DNA of 26,860 nt from a virus: IMG/VR virus record IMGVR_UViG_3300030419_007436, positions 163,770-190,629 of that record; one strand, 5' to 3'. Under the pieces are notes generated by a model. That model searched no databases. It saw nothing but the letters and a program-made list of their open reading frames with translations, and was not told the origin of the DNA. This document shows positions 10,982 to 21,436 of this stretch, piece after piece. The first letter of the stretch is position 1. Each line of letters begins with the position of its first letter. Both the position numbers and the translations under genes were made by a program.

Positions 10982-13099
10982 TCAACTAGAACCGGTTATA
11001 ACCAAGGTTGGATTTGACCTAGTAACACCATATGGAGTGGCGCGCCCCCTAATTGTTGGGGCGCCTGGGACAGTAGCCTGTAGGGGTATTTGAATAACTT
11101 TTCTATTCCAGTTTTGTGAAACATTCAAGCCGTGATTAATTACGAACCAGGCGCCGTCAAATTTATTATATGGCTCCCCTGTGGATCCCCCTTGGCAATC
11201 CTTAAGTCCATTATAGTTTTCTAAATATGTCCAGCCGGGACCGCCAGCACCTAATACATACCCGCCGTACGCACCTATAGAAGGAGGATCTTCTCTAGTG
11301 TTTCCATCTATATCATCTTCAACCGTCTGAAACGGACTTAAACTTGTACCAGCTTGGATTGCTGGGTTGGTATAACAATCGGCGGCGAATCCTGAAGATC
11401 TGTGGGTGTTTTGATTGCCATCTCGGTAGAGTTGTTTAATGTGCTCTGGTGATAAAACCTGATCCCAAACACTAAATTCGTCGATGTTTCCGGTAAAGTG
11501 TGCATCATACCATTGTGGATTGCCATTGTGTGTTGCGTCTGGCTTATACATTTTTGCGCCCAAAGTAAAATATGACCCAGTTTGTACTCTTGGGCCCTTC
11601 TCATTACCGTTATTGGGCATTTTTGACATTAAGTAATTACCATCAATGTATTGAGATATAAGTTTTGTTGTATCATTGACAGTGATTACTAAATGGTGCC
11701 AAGCGCTATCATTGAACGCGTTTGAAAAATCGGAAAGGCCCTCCATGGTGCCCATATTATCCCATTGGTTCGTTGACGCATCGCCCGTATAAAAGGTTGG
11801 GCGCCCGTAATTGCCTATAAAGACTTCCAAAACCCGCGTCGGTGGCGTTATTCCAGTATATTCTTTTTGTATTGCGAACATGCAAGAGCCGCCGCCGTCG
11901 AGAGGCGTGCCAGACTTACCGGTTCGAAACCAAAAAGATACTGAAAAATCAGAATCAATAATATCGTCTGCAACACTGTTACAAGATACATAATTATAAG
12001 ACGAAGAAGCAAAGCCCAGAGAATAGCTTCCAACTACTTTATTTGCTTGGTCCCAAGTTGCACTTGGGTCTCCATCAGACTGACTTAGTGATCCGGTTCT
12101 ATTATTACCTGCACTAGAAACATCTGATAAAGAGGTGCCAGAACCATTTTCCATAGAAAAGTAAGCAGTAGGTACGGCGGCCGCGACATATTTTTCAGAA
12201 ACTAAGGTATAATCATTATTCAAGTAGCTTGCTGAACCTAAAATTCCGGCACTCGTAAAATAGGCGGGCGCAGTGGATAAATTACCAGAAAGCACCCGGG
12301 CATATGCATCCGATTTACTTCCTGTAAACATTGGGGCTTGAGCTAAGTTCCAATAGCTCCAAATAGGTACCGTAACAAGGTTTCCAGTCATCTCATATGC
12401 ACTAACGCCTTCGGCGCCGGTCCAGCCTGCATGTCCCGGATTAGAACCGTCTAATCCAGAAGTACCACTTACTATACAATTAGCAACTTTTCCAGCAATT
12501 AACAGTGGTCCTGCTGATTTCTGACCAACAATTGTACAAAAGCTGGCCGTCGTATCATAATTTGACGAGCCAAGAAACATAACTTCTGAGTCGACGTCAT
12601 CATTAACTATCAAGCAATTATTAACCACCATATAATCGCCACCTGCAACTGCTTTGCCCTTCATGTTAAAAATTTTACAACTTTCTAATACCGCACGATA
12701 GTCAGAAGCGCCGTCGATTTCAACGGTGGCGCCACTGTCATTTCCCACATCATACATTATACAGCCGGTCATACTAAACTGACAATTTGTGCTAGGATTT
12801 TGAGGAACGTGGGAATAGCCAGTAAAAGTCAAGTTCTTATAAGTTGGGCGCTTGGCGCTGGATGCTGCAAATGGGTATGCGCTGGTTCCAGCCCAATCTG
12901 AACCACTTATAAGCACTGTTTCCAATTCCCCCTCAGATCCAGTGGCACACTCCACTATAAGATTGCTGTCGGCTATCGTAATATTAGTTTCATTATAGGT
13001 ACCTGCATATATTTGTATAAAATCATTATCGCTTGCAGCTGCGAAAGCTGCGGCGATTGTAGAATAAGTCTTGCCAGAACCAACTGTGCGAATGGCCAT
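10982..13099 (-). CDS. Tail spike or adhesin with beta-helix and LamG (concanavalin-like) domain
   Basis: The 705-residue protein starts MAIRTVGSGKTYSTIAAAFA and continues FIQIYAGTYNETNITI, the classic start of a pectin-lyase-like parallel beta-helix. Repeating rungs (YKNLTFTG, ESCKIFNMKGKAV, NNCLIVNDDV, TASFCTIVGQ, VANCIVSGTS) run to about residue 215. Residues ~310-565 form a LamG/concanavalin-A-like sandwich. Its hallmarks are AYFSMENGSG, DFSVSFWFRTG, WHHLVITVNDTTKLISQYID and IDEFSVWDQVLSPEHIKQLY. A further Gly-rich C-terminal region ends PTLVITGSS. Beta-helix plus LamG suits binding or trimming surface glycans during adsorption. No catalytic acid pair can be assigned by eye. It is coupled by TAATG to the 93-residue protein upstream. 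Confidence 0.8.
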   Translation of the reverse strand: MAIRTVGSGKTYSTIAAAFAAASDNDFIQIYAGTYNETNITIADSNLIVECATGSEGELETVLISGSDWAGTSAYPFAASSAKRPTYKNLTFTGYSHVPQNPSTNCQFSMTGCIMYDVGNDSGATVEIDGASDYRAVLESCKIFNMKGKAVAGGDYMVVNNCLIVNDDVDSEVMFLGSSNYDTTASFCTIVGQKSAGPLLIAGKVANCIVSGTSGLDGSNPGHAGWTGAEGVSAYEMTGNLVTVPIWSYWNLAQAPMFTGSKSDAYARVLSGNLSTAPAYFTSAGILGSASYLNNDYTLVSEKYVAAAVPTAYFSMENGSGTSLSDVSSAGNNRTGSLSQSDGDPSATWDQANKVVGSYSLGFASSSYNYVSCNSVADDIIDSDFSVSFWFRTGKSGTPLDGGGSCMFAIQKEYTGITPPTRVLEVFIGNYGRPTFYTGDASTNQWDNMGTMEGLSDFSNAFNDSAWHHLVITVNDTTKLISQYIDGNYLMSKMPNNGNEKGPRVQTGSYFTLGAKMYKPDATHNGNPQWYDAHFTGNIDEFSVWDQVLSPEHIKQLYRDGNQNTHRSSGFAADCYTNPAIQAGTSLSPFQTVEDDIDGNTREDPPSIGAYGGYVLGAGGPGWTYLENYNGLKDCQGGSTGEPYNKFDGAWFVINHGLNVSQNWNRKVIQIPLQATVPGAPTIRGRATPYGVTRSNPTLVITGSS

Positions 13100-13420: not shown

Positions 13421-16400
13421 TTAAGCTTCAACAACTTTTGCATAATGACCAGCTTTATCTATTGTTATTTGCATATCCACACAATCTTTAAGCGAGTCAA
13501 GGTGCGAAATTAAAAGCACGGTTTTAAAATATGATTTCACTAGTTCTAATATTCTGACAAAGCCATCCATATTATCAGCGTCGAGCGCTGTACCGGGCTC
13601 ATCCAATATAAATAGATCTGACTTTGGTAAATTCGACACAGAAAGTAGTGCTAAGCGAATTGCCATGGCAGCAATTGTTTTCTCGGCGCCGCTTCCCATT
13701 TCAATTGGCCTTGGTTCGTGGCTTGGGTGTTTAATTAATATTTTTAAATGTCGACTATCGTTTTCAAAAAATACCTCAAAATTCACAACATTTGCCAAAA
13801 CCTTTGCAATTTCATTATTGATAACAGGAAGTTTTTTCTTGATAATATCGTACGATATACCGTTGCTGTGCATGCAAGTCATAAACAAATCATATGCTGA
13901 AAAATCTTTTCTTAAATTCTCCAACTCTTCTTTTTGCTCTTTCAGAGAATTTAATTTTTGTTCCAGCGAACCGTGCTCTTTATAATATTCCATCAAAGAA
14001 TCTTGACAATCTTTTAAATCTCTCTCTTTGAGTGACAAGTCATCTTTTATTTTTTCCAATTCTTTAATAAATGATTCTTTATTTTCAATAAGTTCTCTAT
14101 TTTCTTCATATTGTTTACTTAAAGATAAGAGGGTATCAATTTCTTTTTCGACAGATTTATTTTGTAATTCAGTTTTCTCTCTCAATACCTCTTTTTTTTC
14201 AATTTCACTCTCTAATTGTGTGCGCTTATTAATTACCTGATCATATTTCTTTATATGATCTTCTATTTTTTCTGGATCTAATGAAACAATTTCACTTTCG
14301 ACTTCCTTGTGATTATTATTTAAAAAATCAATCTTTTTCTTTAAGTCGATCATTTCCGAAGAAGCCTTGTGCGCGTCACATATAAATTTACACTGTGGGT
14401 ATTTATCTCCACAGGGCACCTCTTTCAGTAAGAGCTTTTTATTTTGCTGCCTTTCATAGCTCTCTTCTGTTGAGTTGATCTCACTAACAAACTCATTCAA
14501 AAGTTGCAATTTTTTTGCTGCCAATTCTTTCTTTTCGTGTAACGCCTCAATATCAAACATCTTTACGAAAGAATTAATCTTCTTCACGTGTTCCCTGTTA
14601 AAAGATATGTCTTCAGCAACCTGAATGCTCTCCGAAATTAAATCAGCCGATTGTTTTTTCTTTTCTTTAATTTGTATTAATACATCCTCTATATCGATAA
14701 CATCAATAACCACAGAATTAACAGCTTTTTGAGTCTTTTCCTTATTTTTTCTCAAAGAAGCTATTCGTTTTTTAATTTTTTCACAACGATTGGAGTGCTT
14801 CAACGTCTCCGATTCATTTAATAGAAGCTCTTTTTCTACAGCATAGATGTCATCATCAAATTCCATCCCCTCTAGTCGTTTGAGGGCGCCTCTGAGATCT
14901 GATGCATCATCTTTAGCCAATTTATATTTCTTCTCAAACATTTCAAGATCAAGGAATTTGGCCAATATCTCTTTTCTCTTCGTTGATCCTTCGCTGATAA
15001 ATTGAAGGGATCCCAATTGAGAACTCATAGACGTCATCAAAAAATCTTCTAGGGTTCCGAACTGTTTTCTTATTATTTTGTCTGTTTCCCCTCTTGTGAG
15101 TCCGTTTAAACTCTCAGTAACATCAGTCGCCTGATCATAGACCTCGAAATTCAAATCAGTTTTTGCCTCTAGCGTTTCTTCGCCCTTCAGCTTTTTGACA
15201 TACTTTGTTGAATTGCGTTCAATTGTGTATTTTTTATTACCAACTGAAAGCTTTATTTTGCCTTTCCCATATTCTTTGTTTTGGTTGATAATGTTGAGGT
15301 TTTTTCTTTCATTTTTGGACGTAGTATTAAATAAAGTGTAAAGAACACTGTCGATGATGCTAGACTTGCCAGAGTAATTTTTCCCAAATATACCCACAAT
15401 TCCAGAAAATTTATCGAAATCAATTTTATTCCCCTCCCCAAAGTTAAATAGATTGTCCCATTCTATTTCATTCAGCCTCCAATTGACATTTCGCCCAACC
15501 TCTTCTTTTTCTTCTACAATTTTATTATACCTGGAGTTTAAGCTTAAAACTCTTTCTAACAGCTTGTCATCTGCTTGATAGTCTTTCAAATATTCTTCAA
15601 TGAATTCCTCTTGTACGGCAACATCCCTAAGATTATCGTTAATTAAGCCGTCTGTTAAGTCGTCAACACTTCCCTTTTGATTGGAAGCTCGATTCAAGAA
15701 TGTTATACTCTCTGGCTTAAACTTGTACTTTGCAAGTTCCACCGCCTTTTTCATTGAATCGAGGGGTAAATTGTTGTTTGAGACGAGCCGCAGCCTTGCA
15801 CCATTCGGCACGACTGTCTTCTTGGGCATTCGACCTTTGGGTGTTAACTCAATTGTAATAAAGGGTTTTGGATTTTCCAACACAATGTGTTTAACATCCC
15901 ATTTATTACGGCTTTTTATGTTCCAAACCAAAAATCCTTTATCATTAGTTTCCCCATGATTTTGTTGTACAGTTGAACCCGCATAACGAATTCGACCCTC
16001 ATGATCTAAAACTTGGTTGGTTTTGTGAATATCCCCCAAGAAAGCGAAATCGTGTCCCTTGAAAATTGAAACATTGTCTTCGCCGTGCTCCATGACCCAT
16101 CCAAGATCAGTTTCGCTGTTCGATATAGCCCCATGGTAAAGTGCAATATTAATCCGGCTGGTATCAGAAATATCGGCCCAATTATCGCGATCAAATACAG
16201 ACAATACGTTAATAGTAAACTTATCATTTAAACACACCTCCCCCGAATTCTTCAACAAATGAAGACTCGGATGTCCCAAAGCGTCAACTATAGGAGTTAA
16301 CGCGTCCTGTCTATTAGAGTTCTTAAGATTCCCATCATGATTCCCCAATATTACATATGTAGGAGCAATGTCTGCTAAATTCCTTAAAAAATCTGTGCAT

Positions 16401-16576
16401 AGTTCTACAAATTCTGGGGATAATTGTGTCTTGGTATGTGCTATATCACCGCAATGAATGATATAATCAACTTTTTCTTTCCTTAATTTTTGATAGAGTT
16501 TCTCGAAAACAGTTCGATACTCATAGTGGTATTTAAGATTTTTAATGTGCGTATCAGCAATATGTGCAAATTTCAT
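13421..16576 (-). CDS. Single-chain Mre11-Rad50 (SbcD-SbcC, T4 gp47-gp46) fusion nuclease/ATPase
   Basis: One uninterrupted 1051-residue frame holds both subunits of the DNA-end processing complex. Residues 1-~340 are Mre11/SbcD: ADTH (Asp8, His10), HCGD (Asp44), LGNHD (79-81), LYHG (His148), FKGHD (His175) and GDIHK (His184). Residues ~385-1051 are Rad50/SbcC: Walker A GKNYSGKS at 398-405, two long coiled coils, a cysteine cluster PCGDKYPQCKFIC (Cys722, 729, 733) at the hook, signature MGSGAEKTI at 960-968, Walker B DLFILDEPGTALD with Asp992/Glu993, and H-loop His1025. T4 and bacteria encode the two as separate genes. All catalytic residues appear present. The start overlaps the previous stop as TAATG. 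Expected roles are double-strand-end resection for recombination-dependent replication and degradation of host DNA. Confidence 0.92.
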   Translation of the reverse strand: MKFAHIADTHIKNLKYHYEYRTVFEKLYQKLRKEKVDYIIHCGDIAHTKTQLSPEFVELCTDFLRNLADIAPTYVILGNHDGNLKNSNRQDALTPIVDALGHPSLHLLKNSGEVCLNDKFTINVLSVFDRDNWADISDTSRINIALYHGAISNSETDLGWVMEHGEDNVSIFKGHDFAFLGDIHKTNQVLDHEGRIRYAGSTVQQNHGETNDKGFLVWNIKSRNKWDVKHIVLENPKPFITIELTPKGRMPKKTVVPNGARLRLVSNNNLPLDSMKKAVELAKYKFKPESITFLNRASNQKGSVDDLTDGLINDNLRDVAVQEEFIEEYLKDYQADDKLLERVLSLNSRYNKIVEEKEEVGRNVNWRLNEIEWDNLFNFGEGNKIDFDKFSGIVGIFGKNYSGKSSIIDSVLYTLFNTTSKNERKNLNIINQNKEYGKGKIKLSVGNKKYTIERNSTKYVKKLKGEETLEAKTDLNFEVYDQATDVTESLNGLTRGETDKIIRKQFGTLEDFLMTSMSSQLGSLQFISEGSTKRKEILAKFLDLEMFEKKYKLAKDDASDLRGALKRLEGMEFDDDIYAVEKELLLNESETLKHSNRCEKIKKRIASLRKNKEKTQKAVNSVVIDVIDIEDVLIQIKEKKKQSADLISESIQVAEDISFNREHVKKINSFVKMFDIEALHEKKELAAKKLQLLNEFVSEINSTEESYERQQNKKLLLKEVPCGDKYPQCKFICDAHKASSEMIDLKKKIDFLNNNHKEVESEIVSLDPEKIEDHIKKYDQVINKRTQLESEIEKKEVLREKTELQNKSVEKEIDTLLSLSKQYEENRELIENKESFIKELEKIKDDLSLKERDLKDCQDSLMEYYKEHGSLEQKLNSLKEQKEELENLRKDFSAYDLFMTCMHSNGISYDIIKKKLPVINNEIAKVLANVVNFEVFFENDSRHLKILIKHPSHEPRPIEMGSGAEKTIAAMAIRLALLSVSNLPKSDLFILDEPGTALDADNMDGFVRILELVKSYFKTVLLISHLDSLKDCVDMQITIDKAGHYAKVVEA

Positions 16577-17091
16577 TATATGACCTGATATTCCTTTTCT
16601 CCCCGATATTTAACAAACCAATCGGGTATCTTGTTTTTTGGATAACGAATCCTTGGCTTAGATGCATAAAATCGACGGTATGATTCAACAATATTATTAG
16701 AATGAAACTTATGTGGCATTGCTAATGGTAATCGTGTCGGTGAATGTGAAGGAAATAAAGATTTATCATAAATATCAACACACTTTTCTAAAACATATAA
16801 GCATTTATGTATCTTTCCAAATCGTAATTTGTACTCCTCAATCATTGCCATGGTATGTTCAACAAGATTTTCAAAATTCGCTGATGATTCACTTACCCAT
16901 TTTGTTGATGGATGATTTTTGTGTGTAGAACGATATGGTGTAATTTGTTTTCCATGTATTTCATTGAGAACAGTACAAAGCATTTGGCATGATTCAAGAA
17001 TCATCTTGACAACACGATAATTATCTTGGGATTGGGCTGATTTAACCCAGTCAATATTAGTAGTAGTACCTTCGATTGCAAAAATATTCAT
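16576..17091 (-). CDS. Phage protein of the MNIF...KMILE family, function unassigned
   Basis: The 171-residue protein starts MNIFAIEGTTTNIDWVKSAQ and has RVVKMILESCQMLCTVL at about 26-42, then THKNHPSTKWVSESSANF, KLRFGKIHKC, LPLAMPHKF and a C-terminal YRRFYASKPRIRY with WFVKYRG. I recall phage proteins with this motif order (MNIF, KMILE-Q-L, TH-NHP, W-ES-N, YRRYY), common in T4-like phages of aquatic bacteria and without firm function. Many have CDKHVVKM where this one has QDNYRVVKM; this comparison is from memory. Its ATG is six bases after a near-consensus -10 box, and it is coupled to the Mre11-Rad50 gene by TAATG. Co-expression with a repair nuclease suggests DNA metabolism. Confidence 0.65.
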   Translation of the reverse strand: MNIFAIEGTTTNIDWVKSAQSQDNYRVVKMILESCQMLCTVLNEIHGKQITPYRSTHKNHPSTKWVSESSANFENLVEHTMAMIEEYKLRFGKIHKCLYVLEKCVDIYDKSLFPSHSPTRLPLAMPHKFHSNNIVESYRRFYASKPRIRYPKNKIPDWFVKYRGEKEYQVI

Positions 17092-17097
17092 AGATTT

Positions 17098-17126
17098 ATA
17101 TTATCACGCTGTTTTTTAGATGTCAA
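17098..17126 (-). promoter_or_regulatory. Strong sigma70-type promoter, apparently giving a leaderless mRNA
   Basis: On the minus strand: TTGACA (perfect -35) at 17126-17121, a 17-base spacer ending TGA, and TAATAT at 17103-17098, so an extended -10 (TGATAATAT) is present. The ATG of the 171-residue protein follows after six bases, putting the expected transcription start at or next to the A of ATG. No Shine-Dalgarno sequence precedes the ATG. It overlaps the end of the 60-residue gene upstream. Confidence 0.8.
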
Positions 17127-17298
17127 GATTATTTTTTGATTTAATTAATTGTAGAGTGGTGGTCACTAATTCTTTCATTTGGCCACCGTTGAAACACACC
17201 GATGCAATTTGATATGGAAAGACAACAGTTGGTTCGCTAATCTCAGCGACGATTCCCGTTCCTAGTGTGTTATGTTTTACTAAGTCACCTATATTCAT
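17116..17298 (-). CDS. Small SH3/KOW-like protein (60 residues), unknown function
   Basis: The protein starts MNIGDLVKHNTLGTGIVAEI and continues with beta-type sequence (VVFPYQIASVCFNGGQMKEL). The GDLVKH-x-LGTGIV pattern resembles the small five-strand barrel of CarD/KOW-like or tudor-like domains seen in short phage proteins. That size and pattern fit a compact barrel, but no named family can be fixed. It lies between Hsp20 and the promoter of the next gene. The ribosome site is weak, and a 68-base gap separates it from Hsp20, so readthrough from the Hsp20 promoter is likely. A real gene is favoured by its phage-like motif and minus-strand position. Confidence 0.55.
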   Translation of the reverse strand: MNIGDLVKHNTLGTGIVAEISEPTVVFPYQIASVCFNGGQMKELVTTTLQLIKSKNNLDI

Positions 17299-17362
17299 TG
17301 GAACTAAAACAAGACATCTGTAAGCCCATGCCTTCCTGCGGCCATAGTTAAATTATATATTA

Positions 17363-17384
17363 TCTGTTATTTAATTTTAACAGA
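17363..17384 (-). terminator. AT-rich hairpin across the Hsp20 stop codon
   Basis: A perfect 7-base inverted repeat, TCTGTTA and TAACAGA with an 8-base loop, spans the Hsp20 stop codon, and the transcript continues TAATATATAATTT. The stem has only two G-C pairs and there is no clean U-run, so it is at best a weak terminator or an mRNA 3'-end stabiliser. Confidence 0.25.
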
Positions 17385-17801
17385 AATTGGCTCCGCTTCT
17401 GGTCGAATGGGAACATTGATACAAAGAAGCCCATTCTCAAATTCAGCAGAAACAGACGAAAGGTCTAAATTGTTATCAAAATTTACATAAGTTTTTTCAA
17501 AGCTTCTCCGAGCTATTCTTCGATTCGAATCCTCTTCGGTCGATTTAGATTCTGCACGAACTGTAATGCTGCGCTTTTCCGGCTTCACATCAATTGAAAG
17601 GTCATCTTTTGCAAACCCCGCCAAAGCAAATTCCATTACAGTGTCCCCTTTTTCATTTTGATAAATATCAGAAACGGGATATCCACGAGTAGATTGCTGC
17701 ATTAGCTGGGGAAAGTCACTTAGTACGTGATTAAAAACGTCATCGAAAACGTTGCGGCCCAAAAGACTTGGGCGGTGAAGTGTAATTGCTGTATTTGTCA
17801 T
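17367..17801 (-). CDS. hsp20: Small heat-shock protein of the Hsp20/IbpA (alpha-crystallin) family
   Basis: The 144-residue protein has the family architecture. A variable N-terminus, with FDDVFNHVLSDFPQL at about 19-33, precedes an alpha-crystallin domain at about 42-132. The domain shows VSDIYQNEKGDTVMEFALAG, the GFAKDDLSIDVK strand and the diagnostic FENGLLCINVP at 121-131. A C-terminal I-x-V (ISV, 139-141) replaces the usual I-x-I that ties oligomers together. Such proteins hold unfolding proteins without ATP; Hsp20 genes are known in T4-like cyanophages, where help in virion protein folding or stress during infection is suspected. It has its own promoter (17870-17897) and AAGGAG before the ATG, so it is probably expressed at high level. 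Family assignment is firm; purpose in infection is inference. Confidence 0.93.
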   Translation of the reverse strand: MTNTAITLHRPSLLGRNVFDDVFNHVLSDFPQLMQQSTRGYPVSDIYQNEKGDTVMEFALAGFAKDDLSIDVKPEKRSITVRAESKSTEEDSNRRIARRSFEKTYVNFDNNLDLSSVSAEFENGLLCINVPIRPEAEPISVKIK

Positions 17802-17869
17802 AATATTTTCTCCTTATAAAAGCAAGTAACGTGCCAAACATCCCAAAGGCAATGTTTAACATGAATACA

Positions 17870-17897
17870 AATATAATACAATTAAAAAGTTTGTCAA
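17870..17897 (-). promoter_or_regulatory. Sigma70-type promoter of the hsp20 gene
   Basis: On the minus strand TTGACA (17897-17892) is followed by 16 bases and TATATT (17875-17870). The expected start near 17863 gives a leader of about 60 bases. Within the leader AAACAT and ATGTTT can form a 6-base hairpin with a 10-base loop. It does not cover the AAGGAG, so I see no thermosensor of the ROSE type. Confidence 0.7.
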
Positions 17898-17913
17898 GCC
17901 CCTAATTCAGGTT

Positions 17914-18936
17914 TTAACAAAATTCCCCGTCCTTTTCGCCGTATTCTGGGCTTAGCTTCTGGCCGAGGAACTTAACCTCATCAATTACTTTATCGTTTTT
18001 AAATGCAGGAATGTTTTTGCTGAACCAGCTATTGATTGTATCAACCATTTGAATAATCTTTTTACGTCGTTTGTCAATATGATCAACAGTTCCTTTACGA
18101 CAATGGAAAACAATAGCATTCTTGCCGCTCTTACCCCCCTCATCAAAAATGCGGAAGACAGGTGAAAGCACTTTAACCCAAAAATCTTGTTCGCTAGCCG
18201 TTGATACTGTAATGTTTGTCAAGGGAGATTTAGAAACTCCCCTTGCAGACTCAATTCCAAATTCACGCAAGTATACCTTATCAAGTTCGGGCCAGCTATA
18301 GCGCTTAATCTTTGACTTGCGCACGTGATCACCCTTCTTGTGAATATCAGTAAGCATCTTTTCAACTTCATCCACAGTTAGCCCCTTGCAGTTAGTTTTA
18401 ATCCAATCTTTAAGTGTTTTGTCGACAGTTGGATTATCCCAATCATCAGCAGCTACCAACTCGGAAGCCTCTTTACTCAAATAGCCATCAACCAAAAGCA
18501 TATACGCTGTGTAGACAGAATCATTATATGAATTGCATTTATGTACTTGGCCTGGATGTTCATTTTGCTGATGTTGCCACTGTAGCCAATCGTTTGTAGC
18601 ATGAGTGCCGGAATGGTTATTATATACAGTGCACTCAATCATATTATATTTATTACTATTTTTATGTTTAGTTTTGAGGCTTCGATATGCTAAGAGCCGA
18701 TGGTTGCCGTCACGAAGCATATACGTTGATTTACTGTCATCTTCTGAGTCAAGATTTATAACTTCGACACTAATTGGCTTAAACAAACCGTTTGTCTCGA
18801 TATCAGCTTCAATGTTTTTTAAATTTTCCGGATCATAATCGCCAACGCGGGATTGTGATGGAATTGCCTCATTCTGAATATTATCTAAATTAATTAATTT
18901 TGTACTGTATAGTACCGTTGGTTTGAAGTTTTTCAT
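17914..18936 (-). CDS. ParB/sulfiredoxin-fold protein (340 residues)
   Basis: The N-terminal ~90 residues follow the ParB/Srx pattern. SQSRVGDYDPENLKNIEADI and ETNGLFKPISVEVINL precede MLRDGNHRLLAYRSL at about 73-87, whose DGNHR is the nucleotide or phosphate-binding signature of the fold. The remaining 250 residues are lineage-specific, with WLQWQHQQNEHPGQVHKC, KIKRYSWPELDKVYLREFGI and a basic DKRRKKIIQMVDTI segment. Proteins of this fold include ParB CTPase clamps, nickases and other nucleases, so the activity cannot be fixed. No helix-turn-helix of classical ParB is evident. It follows the primase gene and is preceded by a structured leader RNA. A DNA-processing or regulatory role is likely by context. 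Confidence 0.75.
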   Translation of the reverse strand: MKNFKPTVLYSTKLINLDNIQNEAIPSQSRVGDYDPENLKNIEADIETNGLFKPISVEVINLDSEDDSKSTYMLRDGNHRLLAYRSLKTKHKNSNKYNMIECTVYNNHSGTHATNDWLQWQHQQNEHPGQVHKCNSYNDSVYTAYMLLVDGYLSKEASELVAADDWDNPTVDKTLKDWIKTNCKGLTVDEVEKMLTDIHKKGDHVRKSKIKRYSWPELDKVYLREFGIESARGVSKSPLTNITVSTASEQDFWVKVLSPVFRIFDEGGKSGKNAIVFHCRKGTVDHIDKRRKKIIQMVDTINSWFSKNIPAFKNDKVIDEVKFLGQKLSPEYGEKDGEFC

Positions 18937-18950
18937 TTTTATCTCTTTTT

Positions 18951-19031
18951 CGCCCTATTTACAGGGTCTTGTTTATACGCTCATTTACGAGCCACACCAA
19001 TATCGTATCACGTCTTTGGCACCCTGTAAAG
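18951..19031 (-). promoter_or_regulatory. Structured leader between primase and ParB-like genes
   Basis: The whole gap can fold in the transcript. A perfect 10-base inverted repeat (TTTACAGGGT at 18958-18967 on the plus strand, ACCCTGTAAA at 19021-19030) closes a 53-base loop. Inside, GCTC-GTAAAT-GAGC makes a hairpin (18979-18992). A second hairpin, CCCT-GTAAAT-AGGG (18953-18966), has the identical GTAAAT loop and competes with the long stem. The second hairpin ends about 16 bases before the ATG. A weak TTGGTG-17-TATAAA promoter-like pair lies within. Switching or protein-bound translational control is plausible but unproven. Confidence 0.5.
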
Positions 19032-19964
19032 TTAAATTTGTAATATTTTTTGAATTAAAAGGGATGACTCATCAAGTAGTGTTGCATTGTTCTTTCTGTC
19101 TTCAAACTCTTCTTTTGTCATGACACCCACATCTTCATAGTCAGACGTGTCAATTTTGTGTACTTCGACACCGTGTGAAAGAAGCGCGTTAATGATGCTT
19201 AAAGCCTTCTTTTCTGCATCTTGGTCTAGAGCCACGTAGACTCGTTTAGAACGCTCTAGAATGGCCTTAAAAAGCCTAGAATAGGTACTCAACGTTGAAC
19301 CCAACATTGGCACCGAATTTTCAGCAGTAATCGCATCAAAAACACCTTCAACTAAAGTAATTGGTTTATCCCAATCGATCATTAATTCATTAAAAACTAC
19401 ATTTTTAGAAGCTGGAGGATTCTTATACTTTAGCCAATCATCTTTGTATGTTCTCGCAACAAAATAATCACAGTATCCATCTAAATTAAACGATGGAATA
19501 ATGATTCTATTTCTGTATTCTCCGCTGTCACAATAACCTACCTTCCAGAATAGGATGTCGGCCTTTGTGATTCCCCTTTGCTTAAGATATTTGAGAGGTA
19601 CAGCTGCAGTAGATGGCAAATTTTTGTTTGCTAGCGAAATAAATTCATTTGGCAGCTTTACTCGCTGTAGTATCTCTTCTTCTTGTTTTTCTTCAAACAG
19701 ATTATCAAAATCTGTGATGTCTACAACTTCCTCAAAACTTCTCCAAGTTTGTCGATGGCGATAGTTACCAAACCTTTTTATGAGATAGTATATGTTTCTA
19801 CCTCGGCTGTCACAGACCCAACACTTATAGTTGTTTTTAGATATATTTATAGAAAGTTTTCGTTTGTGGTGTTTGCAGAAAGGGCAGAAGAATAAAATCT
19901 CGTCGTTTGAGGAGTAAAATGTACCTAAAATTTCTTCAAGTATTTCAAGTTTTTCAGAATCCAT
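19032..19964 (-). CDS. 61: DNA primase of DnaG/T4 gp61 type
   Basis: The 310-residue protein has a four-cysteine zinc-binding domain (CPFC at 27-30, CWVC at 48-51). It also has a TOPRIM catalytic domain: LVEGVFDAI with Glu205 and Asp209, then VALDQDAEKKA with Asp246 and Asp248. The linking region with GITKADILFWKVGY and NRIIIPSFNLDG is the typical RNA-polymerase-domain prelude. The length is close to T4 gp61 (342 residues). It makes RNA primers for the lagging strand with a replicative helicase that is not in this window. The only plausible start is the ATG at 19964, six bases downstream of a -10 box and without a ribosome site, so initiation seems leaderless. All zinc and metal residues are present. 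Confidence 0.9.
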   Translation of the reverse strand: MDSEKLEILEEILGTFYSSNDEILFFCPFCKHHKRKLSINISKNNYKCWVCDSRGRNIYYLIKRFGNYRHRQTWRSFEEVVDITDFDNLFEEKQEEEILQRVKLPNEFISLANKNLPSTAAVPLKYLKQRGITKADILFWKVGYCDSGEYRNRIIIPSFNLDGYCDYFVARTYKDDWLKYKNPPASKNVVFNELMIDWDKPITLVEGVFDAITAENSVPMLGSTLSTYSRLFKAILERSKRVYVALDQDAEKKALSIINALLSHGVEVHKIDTSDYEDVGVMTKEEFEDRKNNATLLDESSLLIQKILQI

Positions 19965-20908: not shown

Positions 20909-21436
20909 TTATTCCTTTGTAAGTATATAGTTGGCAGCTTTTGCAATTACCAGCGAGTCAGCCATATCATAATATTTTGGTTTAGGGTTCTTTTTGTGTG
21001 TGTATTCCACTTTAAAGTCTGGTTCATTGTTAAGCAACCATTCCATAACAACCTTTTTTGCTTTTTGTCCTCTTGGTACTTTTATTCCACAAAGTTTTCT
21101 TGCTTCGCCTGCAGTTAAATATTTTGGTGTGATATTAAATATATCATAGCAAAGCCACGAAACAACCCCATTAAATTTTTGAAGGGATGCCATTGTTCTT
21201 GCGGAAGAACCACCAGAATTAAAAAACATAAATGGCTGTTCAATATATATATGCTGTACAGGTAGCTGAGCTTTTATTAAACATAAGCCGTCTTTTATAA
21301 AATTTGCTTTATCAAAATGGTTTTTATATTTATTTTTATTACGGATGTCCCACACATCACAACGTATAATTTTACCTTCATGATCCATTATCGTGTGGCC
21401 CGTAATGTTTGTTGAAACATCTAGTCCTAATATCAT
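20909..21436 (-). CDS. ruvC: RuvC-like Holliday-junction resolvase (RNase H fold)
   Basis: The 175-residue protein matches RuvC in size and active-site layout. MILGLDVSTNITG supplies Asp6, HIYIEQPF supplies Glu66, and YYDMADSLVIA supplies Asp157 and Asp160, the four metal ligands of the fold (E. coli Asp7, Glu66, Asp138, Asp141). The basic stretch GIKVPRGQKAKKVV fits DNA contact. RuvC-type enzymes cut four-way junctions; in phages they resolve recombination intermediates and branches before packaging, a job T4 gives to the unrelated gp49. It is the first gene of the replication block, behind a promoter buried in the end of the preceding structural gene. Orthology to host RuvC is not claimed, only the family and fold. 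Confidence 0.85.
   Translation of the reverse strand: MILGLDVSTNITGHTIMDHEGKIIRCDVWDIRNKNKYKNHFDKANFIKDGLCLIKAQLPVQHIYIEQPFMFFNSGGSSARTMASLQKFNGVVSWLCYDIFNITPKYLTAGEARKLCGIKVPRGQKAKKVVMEWLLNNEPDFKVEYTHKKNPKPKYYDMADSLVIAKAANYILTKE

Follow-up and report, generated by a model that had tools for sequence, protein, structure and literature searches.

A probable single-chain Mre11-Rad50 DNA-end-processing nuclease of the R555 type, with a variable hook, in a ~190-kb tailed phage

A gene of 1051 codons was examined in the final 26,860 bases (referred to below as the window) of IMG/VR virus record IMGVR_UViG_3300030419_007436, which is 190,629 bases long. A preliminary description of this DNA had claimed that one polypeptide carries Mre11 (SbcD) followed by Rad50 (SbcC), and this was borne out by a single frame with matches to both domain families. 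It is highly probable that the gene is a genuine one and encodes a single-chain Mre11-Rad50 (SbcD-SbcC) DNA-end-processing nuclease of a ~190-kb tailed phage, of the same type as Mimivirus R555 and acting by the mechanism proposed below. The open reading frame (ORF) lies exactly at the stated coordinates, 13421..16576, on the minus strand (no strand had been named before), starts with ATG and contains no internal stops. The features of the gene and of its product (residues in amino acids [aa]) were as follows.

13421..16576, minus strand: coding sequence of the single-chain Mre11-Rad50 (SbcD-SbcC) fusion, 1051 aa (ORF and domain matches; a single ORF in 179/183 related loci)
15881..16576, minus strand: Mre11 phosphoesterase domain, residues 1-232 (Pfam PF00149 and motif comparison)
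15677..15862, minus strand: Mre11 capping domain, residues ~239-300 (AlphaFold2 secondary structure; fold match to 7dog)
15506..15622, minus strand: predicted Mre11 helix-loop-helix (HLH), the Rad50-binding element, helices 319-333 and 337-357 (AlphaFold2 model)
15485..15505, minus strand: fusion junction, residues 358-364 (EVGRNVN), 7 residues, with Rad50 beta-1 directly after it (AlphaFold2 model)
14954..15484, minus strand: Rad50 N-terminal ATPase lobe, residues 365-541, with Walker A GKNYSGKS and Q-loop Q520 (Pfam PF13476, motifs and model)
14420..14944, minus strand: ascending arm of the coiled coil, residues 545-719, with C598 (AlphaFold2 model)
14390..14419, minus strand: hook loop, residues 720-729 (VPCGDKYPQC), with C722 and C729, PC-x6-C and not CXXC (sequence and AlphaFold2 model)
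13871..14389, minus strand: descending arm of the coiled coil, residues 730-902, with C857 opposite C598 (AlphaFold2 model)
13421..13870, minus strand: Rad50 C-terminal ATPase lobe, residues 903-1051 and stop, with signature GSGAEK, Walker B LFILDEP, D-loop TALD and H-loop H1025 (motifs and model)

The two halves of the protein were recognized by separate families. Pfam detected Metallophos (PF00149) at residues 1-156 (E = 1.2e-13) and AAA_23 (PF13476) at residues 374-612 (E = 8.3e-10), and PHROGs detected an SbcD-like family at residues 1-465 (E = 5.7e-32) and an SbcC-like family at residues 181-1050 (E = 1.5e-50). Both PHROGs profiles are long (989 and 967 positions, respectively), which suggests that fused members are already present within that collection. 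An AlphaFold2 single-chain model was built with 79 relatives and had a mean predicted local distance difference test (pLDDT) score of 83.6 and a predicted template modelling (pTM) score of 0.51. In this model the phosphoesterase, cap, HLH, joint and Rad50 lobes, the last at both ends of a long coiled coil, followed one another in the expected order. Matches to the fold in the PDB were to Mre11, Rad50 and SbcCD, with the capping domain matching 7dog, an SbcD nuclease with its capping domain; the predicted fold includes every element that an assembled Mre11-Rad50 head should have. Helices 319-333 and 337-357 were taken as the predicted HLH of Mre11 because of where they lie in the chain and by comparison with Mre11 structures already known (PMC3175470). 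A fixed 1:1 ratio of Mre11 to Rad50 would follow from the fusion.

The joint between the halves was shorter than originally proposed. A linker of ~45 residues, at about 340-385, had been suggested, but residues 337-357 form the second helix of the HLH in the model and Rad50 beta-1 starts at residue 365, so that the joint is confined to residues 358-364. Its length was 7 residues in 155 of 158 distinct relatives (proteins at <95% identity, among them the window protein and those from hook-search loci), and R362, N363 and W366 were invariant in the 79 sequences. It was argued in 2011 that the Mre11 C terminus lies near the Rad50 N terminus, so that a short linker is enough (PMC3175470). A joint that is both short and fixed in length speaks against a loose tether and suggests that Mre11 is held in a set place on Rad50. 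Furthermore, a natural single chain of ~1050 residues with such a joint is a handy structural target for studying the relative motion of Mre11 and Rad50.

The motifs of both enzymes had been described as complete. This was correct for the Rad50 half, in which the full set of Walker A, Q-loop, signature, Walker B, D-loop and H-loop was present, but not for the Mre11 half, in which two of the canonical motifs deviate. The DTH, GD, GNHD, H148 and H184 motifs of Mre11 were found, and the phosphoesterase residues were D8, H10, D44, H47, N79, H80, H148, D182 and H184. Motif II, however, reads GDIAH in place of the canonical GDxxD, and motif V reads GDIH (GDIHK) in place of GHxH, with D182 replacing the first His. 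The aligned metal-ligand positions were all kept apart from this one His-to-Asp change. The deviating H47 and D182, together with H184, were invariant in the 79 sequences, as were the other metal ligands. Both deviations were present in Microcystis phage Mel-JY01 and in an uncultured phage of 484 kb, while a 735-kb phage had GDIH only. One could suppose from the change of GHxH to GDIH that the Mre11 half is catalytically dead and that the fusion acts only as a DNA-tethering ATPase, as the first His of motif V is a metal ligand in canonical Mre11 and is Asp throughout the family and in Mimivirus R555. We consider this improbable: Asp is able to serve as a metal ligand, split SbcD-like proteins of T5 (D12, annotated as a probable exonuclease subunit) and Vibrio phage D239 have the same GD(L/I)H, and the remaining ligands are invariant over the 79 sequences, whereas drift would be expected at a site that had lost its activity.

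The genomic setting of the gene was also examined. The virus is a tailed marine phage of ~190 kb. Among its genes are those for tail sheath, major head protein, terminase, portal and prohead protease, and others encode a DnaB-like helicase, a DNA polymerase of 1144 aa, a UvsX-like recombinase, ribonucleotide reductase and GroEL. The record held a single match to the fusion and no second copy. Three genes upstream of the fusion were noted.

16576..17091, minus strand: upstream gene, pyrimidine-dimer glycosylase-like (Pfam Pyr_excise)
19032..19964, minus strand: DNA primase (family match; homologue upstream of the fusion in relatives)
20909..21436, minus strand: RuvC-like Holliday junction resolvase (family match; homologue upstream of the fusion in relatives)

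The stop codon of the glycosylase-like gene overlaps the start of the fusion as TAATG, with AGGA-rich sequence upstream, and this overlap suggests that the two genes may be translationally coupled. Upstream DNA of 4 kb was available for 112 relatives; a primase homologue was found upstream of the fusion in 110 of them, mostly only tens of bases away, and a RuvC-like gene preceded the primase in 105. In the window, a ParB-like, an Hsp20 and a pyrimidine-dimer glycosylase-like gene (16576-19000) separate the primase from the fusion. As the primase is upstream in nearly all relatives, and in most of them almost adjacent to the fusion, this arrangement points to a local insertion of genes.

The proposed mechanism is as follows. 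Each chain would contribute one Mre11 nuclease and one complete Rad50 ATPase, and two chains would dimerize through their Mre11 parts. ATP would close both Rad50 heads over DNA, while the HLH of Mre11 would dock in cis on the coil base of its own chain by means of the conserved 7-residue joint. The coil tips would be joined by a metal hook, presumably of zinc, to which each chain supplies two cysteines in a geometry other than CXXC. The nuclease would then resect or clip DNA ends, from which UvsX would start recombination-dependent replication. From knowledge of the family and the published work (PMC3175470), the most likely function is this supply of recombinogenic ends to UvsX, as by gp46/47 in T4; a role in recombination-dependent replication fits a genome with primase, RuvC and UvsX.

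Several points weigh against this interpretation. With GDIH in place of GHxH, the nuclease might be weakened or otherwise changed in its activity, and both this activity and the binding of zinc by the hook loops are putative. Docking of the HLH in cis is hypothetical: the model is reliable for single domains but not for the placement of Mre11 relative to Rad50 (pTM, 0.51). Finally, the genome is recorded as linear, and part of it may be missing. A different function was also considered, namely an anti-host or defence-related one, with the protein as a nuclease-ATPase of the SMC kind and not an enzyme of replication and recombination. Weaker fold matches were indeed obtained to bacterial SMC-like nuclease systems (Wadjet/JetABCD), and gp46/47 of T4 are, according to a feature note, also needed for degradation of host DNA. 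The best sequence families were nevertheless SbcC and SbcD, the cap and HLH are specific to Mre11, the gene stands in order with a primase and a RuvC resolvase, and the genome has a UvsX recombinase, so that a defence function appears very unlikely.

The fusion was widely distributed among phages. The window protein alone matched 25 related viral loci, but alignment-based scans of IMG/VR gave many more, with at least 570 matching stretches in each of two scans. Among 183 related IMG/VR loci, in which some contigs are counted twice, Mre11, Rad50-N and Rad50-C were in one ORF in 179, and the remaining 4 ended at contig ends; no stop/start was seen at the junction in any of the 183. The uninterrupted frame of ~1050 codons was found in the 158 distinct proteins, which came from many metagenomes, and the fused family is very common in ocean phages. 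The suggestion that the fusion defines a lineage was too strong, as fusions also occur in giant viruses, Mel-JY01 and XacN1, although it holds that the whole lineage is fused. The window contig is metagenomic and sbcD and sbcC are adjacent in many phages, overlapping by a few bases in some, so that a lost stop, a frameshift or another small error could join them, but the chance of such a sequencing or assembly artefact is negligible given 179 intact relatives, the same unbroken frame and 7-residue joint in 158 distinct proteins, and a fused frame in the annotated isolate genome of Mel-JY01.

A few related copies were unusual. In the 484-kb uncultured phage (LR756508.1; locus L027, 3944-8169), the fused gene is broken at Mre11 motif V, after GDIHKRQ, by ~0.9 kb with a 305-aa ORF that has a TnsA-like endonuclease domain. 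The insert has the look of a homing endonuclease element, whether as an intron, an intein or a split of the gene; an Rfam search of the interrupted gene detected no group I intron. A 62%-identical relative in the chromosome of a candidate division WOR-3 metagenome-assembled genome (MAG) (CP070664.1; locus L114, 4995-7052) stops after 685 aa, with no Rad50 C-lobe in the locus; it may be a copy that was truncated, what is left of a provirus or the result of wrong binning. Full fused copies were present on a 7.8-kb Flavobacteriales MAG contig (L112) and a 24-kb Acidiferrobacteraceae MAG contig (L113). These are probably phage contigs in bacterial bins, as the L113 contig matches an IMG/VR viral contig (L078) in length and range.

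Hook cysteines had been listed among the Rad50 motifs, and a cysteine pair was indeed located at the coil tip (C722 and C729, within PCGDKYPQCKFI). Within VPCGDKYPQCKFI these two cysteines have Cx6C spacing, in a PC-x6-C loop and not the CXXC zinc hook. In the model, loop 720-729 lies between two long helices and has low local confidence; C733, just past C729, is variable across the family. The Pfam family Rad50_zn_hook was absent from this hook, which is a weak test, since the profile also misses CXXC relatives and matches T4 gp46 only below the cut-off. A search of phage records with the hook peptide gave only weak chance matches. Reviews describe the Rad50 hook as a conserved CXXC motif (PMC9569753), and no description of a non-CXXC or alternatively spaced Rad50 hook was found in the open-licence literature. 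The variation of the hook is the new part of these findings, the fusion itself having been published.

All 158 distinct fused proteins had a cysteine pair at the tip, with spacings of Cx6C (124), CxxC (19), Cx7C (11), CxC (3) and Cx3C (1). The 110 of them that were found without use of a hook pattern had a similar distribution (78, 17, 11, 3 and 1, respectively). At least 20 switches of hook class were detected on a tree of the head domains. For CxxC versus the rest, at least 12 switches fell on supported branches, and 10 were found in a second tree from which the two longest rows had been removed. The L311 (CxxC) and L211 (Cx6C) proteins illustrate the difference, their heads being ~87-100% identical and their tips only 24-34%. 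At matched arm identity, pairs of different hook class had less similar tips than pairs of the same class, a comparison that is partly circular because the hook lies within the tip. Single metagenomic contigs may be chimeric, but a switched hook is also common to all members of clades that comprise several contigs. Hooks with long spacing that start with VPC were also present in the split SbcC proteins of Moorella phage MTATph1, Leptospira phage LE1 and a Paraburkholderia plasmid, which rules out the PC-x6-C hook as a feature of fusions only. T4, T5 and the Herelleviridae have a CxxC hook.

A second pair of cysteines was detected on the arms. C598 (14783-14785) and C857 (14006-14008) lie on opposite arms of the coiled coil, roughly equidistant from the hook. 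Both were present in 107 of the 158 proteins, neither in 39 and only one in 12; in phylogenetically independent pairs they went together in 5-7 cases and were separated in none (median P = 0.016). The two residues might form a disulfide or a second metal site. A speculative extension, which we regard as rather doubtful, is that the hook of the fused Rad50 is an exchangeable recognition cassette, in which a metal-binding cysteine pair is retained while spacing and tip are repeatedly replaced among close relatives, so that each protein would pair with others of its type rather than with Rad50 from the host or from co-infecting phages; the covarying C598 and C857, half-way along the arms, would brace the coil. 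The abundance of the family, its fixed joint and its gene order usefully extend what has been published on the fusion, but hook plasticity is the most worth following: with at least five cysteine spacings in one family, the textbook assumption that joining of Rad50 tips requires CXXC geometry becomes testable.

Two other proteins of this phage were noted. The tail sheath protein (1060 aa; record 152194-155376, L244:12194-15376) matches sheath families only at residues 711-1058, the C-terminal third, and hence has a long additional region at its N terminus. Window 10982-13099, immediately downstream of the replication block, encodes a 705-aa protein with a laminin-G/concanavalin-A-like lectin domain, possibly for host binding or virion decoration.

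Comparison with known systems ruled out the fusion as a unique or new trait, given the published fusions (PMC3175470), Mel-JY01, XacN1 and the giant-virus proteins. The T4 gp47/gp46 proteins and their cyanophage homologues have the same two activities and the same 5'-to-3' order of Mre11 and then Rad50. They differ in being encoded by two genes, as had been noted (with two small genes between them in T4), and in having a canonical GHFH and a CPTC hook. The split SbcC proteins of MTATph1, LE1 and the Paraburkholderia plasmid share two long-spaced hook cysteines (VPC...C(P/L)LL) with the window protein, but have a separate Mre11 gene and spacings of Cx7C, Cx13C and Cx8C, and are otherwise distant. 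Xanthomonas phage XacN1 encodes a single-chain Mre11-Rad50 fusion (a 1099-aa "recombination endonuclease subunit"); unlike the window protein, it has GHFH and a CPYC hook and groups with split T4-like proteins. Mel-JY01 has a single fused ORF (WWT39521, "AAA domain containing protein") that aligns with 99% of the window protein at 30% identity, carries GDIH and GDIVH and has a primase-like gene just upstream. It differs in its hook, CKHC, which is of the CXXC type.

The origin of these fusions was examined with a tree of the Mre11 and Rad50 heads, which is small, thinly sampled and has some long branches. The window family, Mel-JY01 and the 484-kb and 735-kb phage proteins were separated from all sampled split proteins (100% bootstrap), and XacN1 grouped with T4 and the cyanophages (100% bootstrap). 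A single fusion event for all phages was not supported, given this grouping of XacN1; its fusion is probably independent of that in the window family, and this moderate evidence suggests at least two separate fusion events in phages.

The best viral fold matches were to giant-virus repair proteins of ~1000-1400 aa, with Tupanvirus first (23% identity over 1316 columns) and Harvfovirus, Yasminevirus, Megavirus and others also present, together with Tenacibaculum phages pT24 and PTm1. Mimivirus R555 and twelve further Mre11/Rad50 fusions from eukaryotes, bacteria, plasmids and one phage were described in 2011 by Yoshida, Claverie and Ogata (PMC3175470), among them plasmid fusions of C. kluyveri and Deferribacter; a search of a plasmid collection with the window protein gave no match. 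That study argued that abundant marine R555-like sequences were viral, perhaps from phages, and noted phage primases on the same scaffolds (PMC3175470). The phage origin was drawn from short metagenome reads, few long environmental sequences confirmed the fusion, and longer ones were called for (PMC3175470). The relatives of the window protein supply these, with at least 570 IMG/VR stretches and, on phage contigs where the RuvC-primase-fusion order is conserved, 158 distinct proteins that are nearly complete. The presence of this order in 105-110 of 112 relatives fits the phage-primase scaffolds of 2011. By their published description, R555 and the R555-like fusions resemble the window protein in domain order, viral origin, marine abundance, a primase on neighbouring scaffolds and both motif deviations (GDxxH instead of GDxxD, and motif V with its first His replaced by Asp [PMC3175470]). 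Common ancestry with R555 may be suspected from these shared motifs and from the fold and sequence matches to the Mimivirus relatives Tupanvirus and Megavirus. R555 differs in coming from a giant eukaryotic virus and not a tailed phage, and in its length of 1351 aa compared with 1051 aa. By its domain order and both motif deviations, the window fusion belongs to the R555-type viral Mre11/Rad50 fusions.

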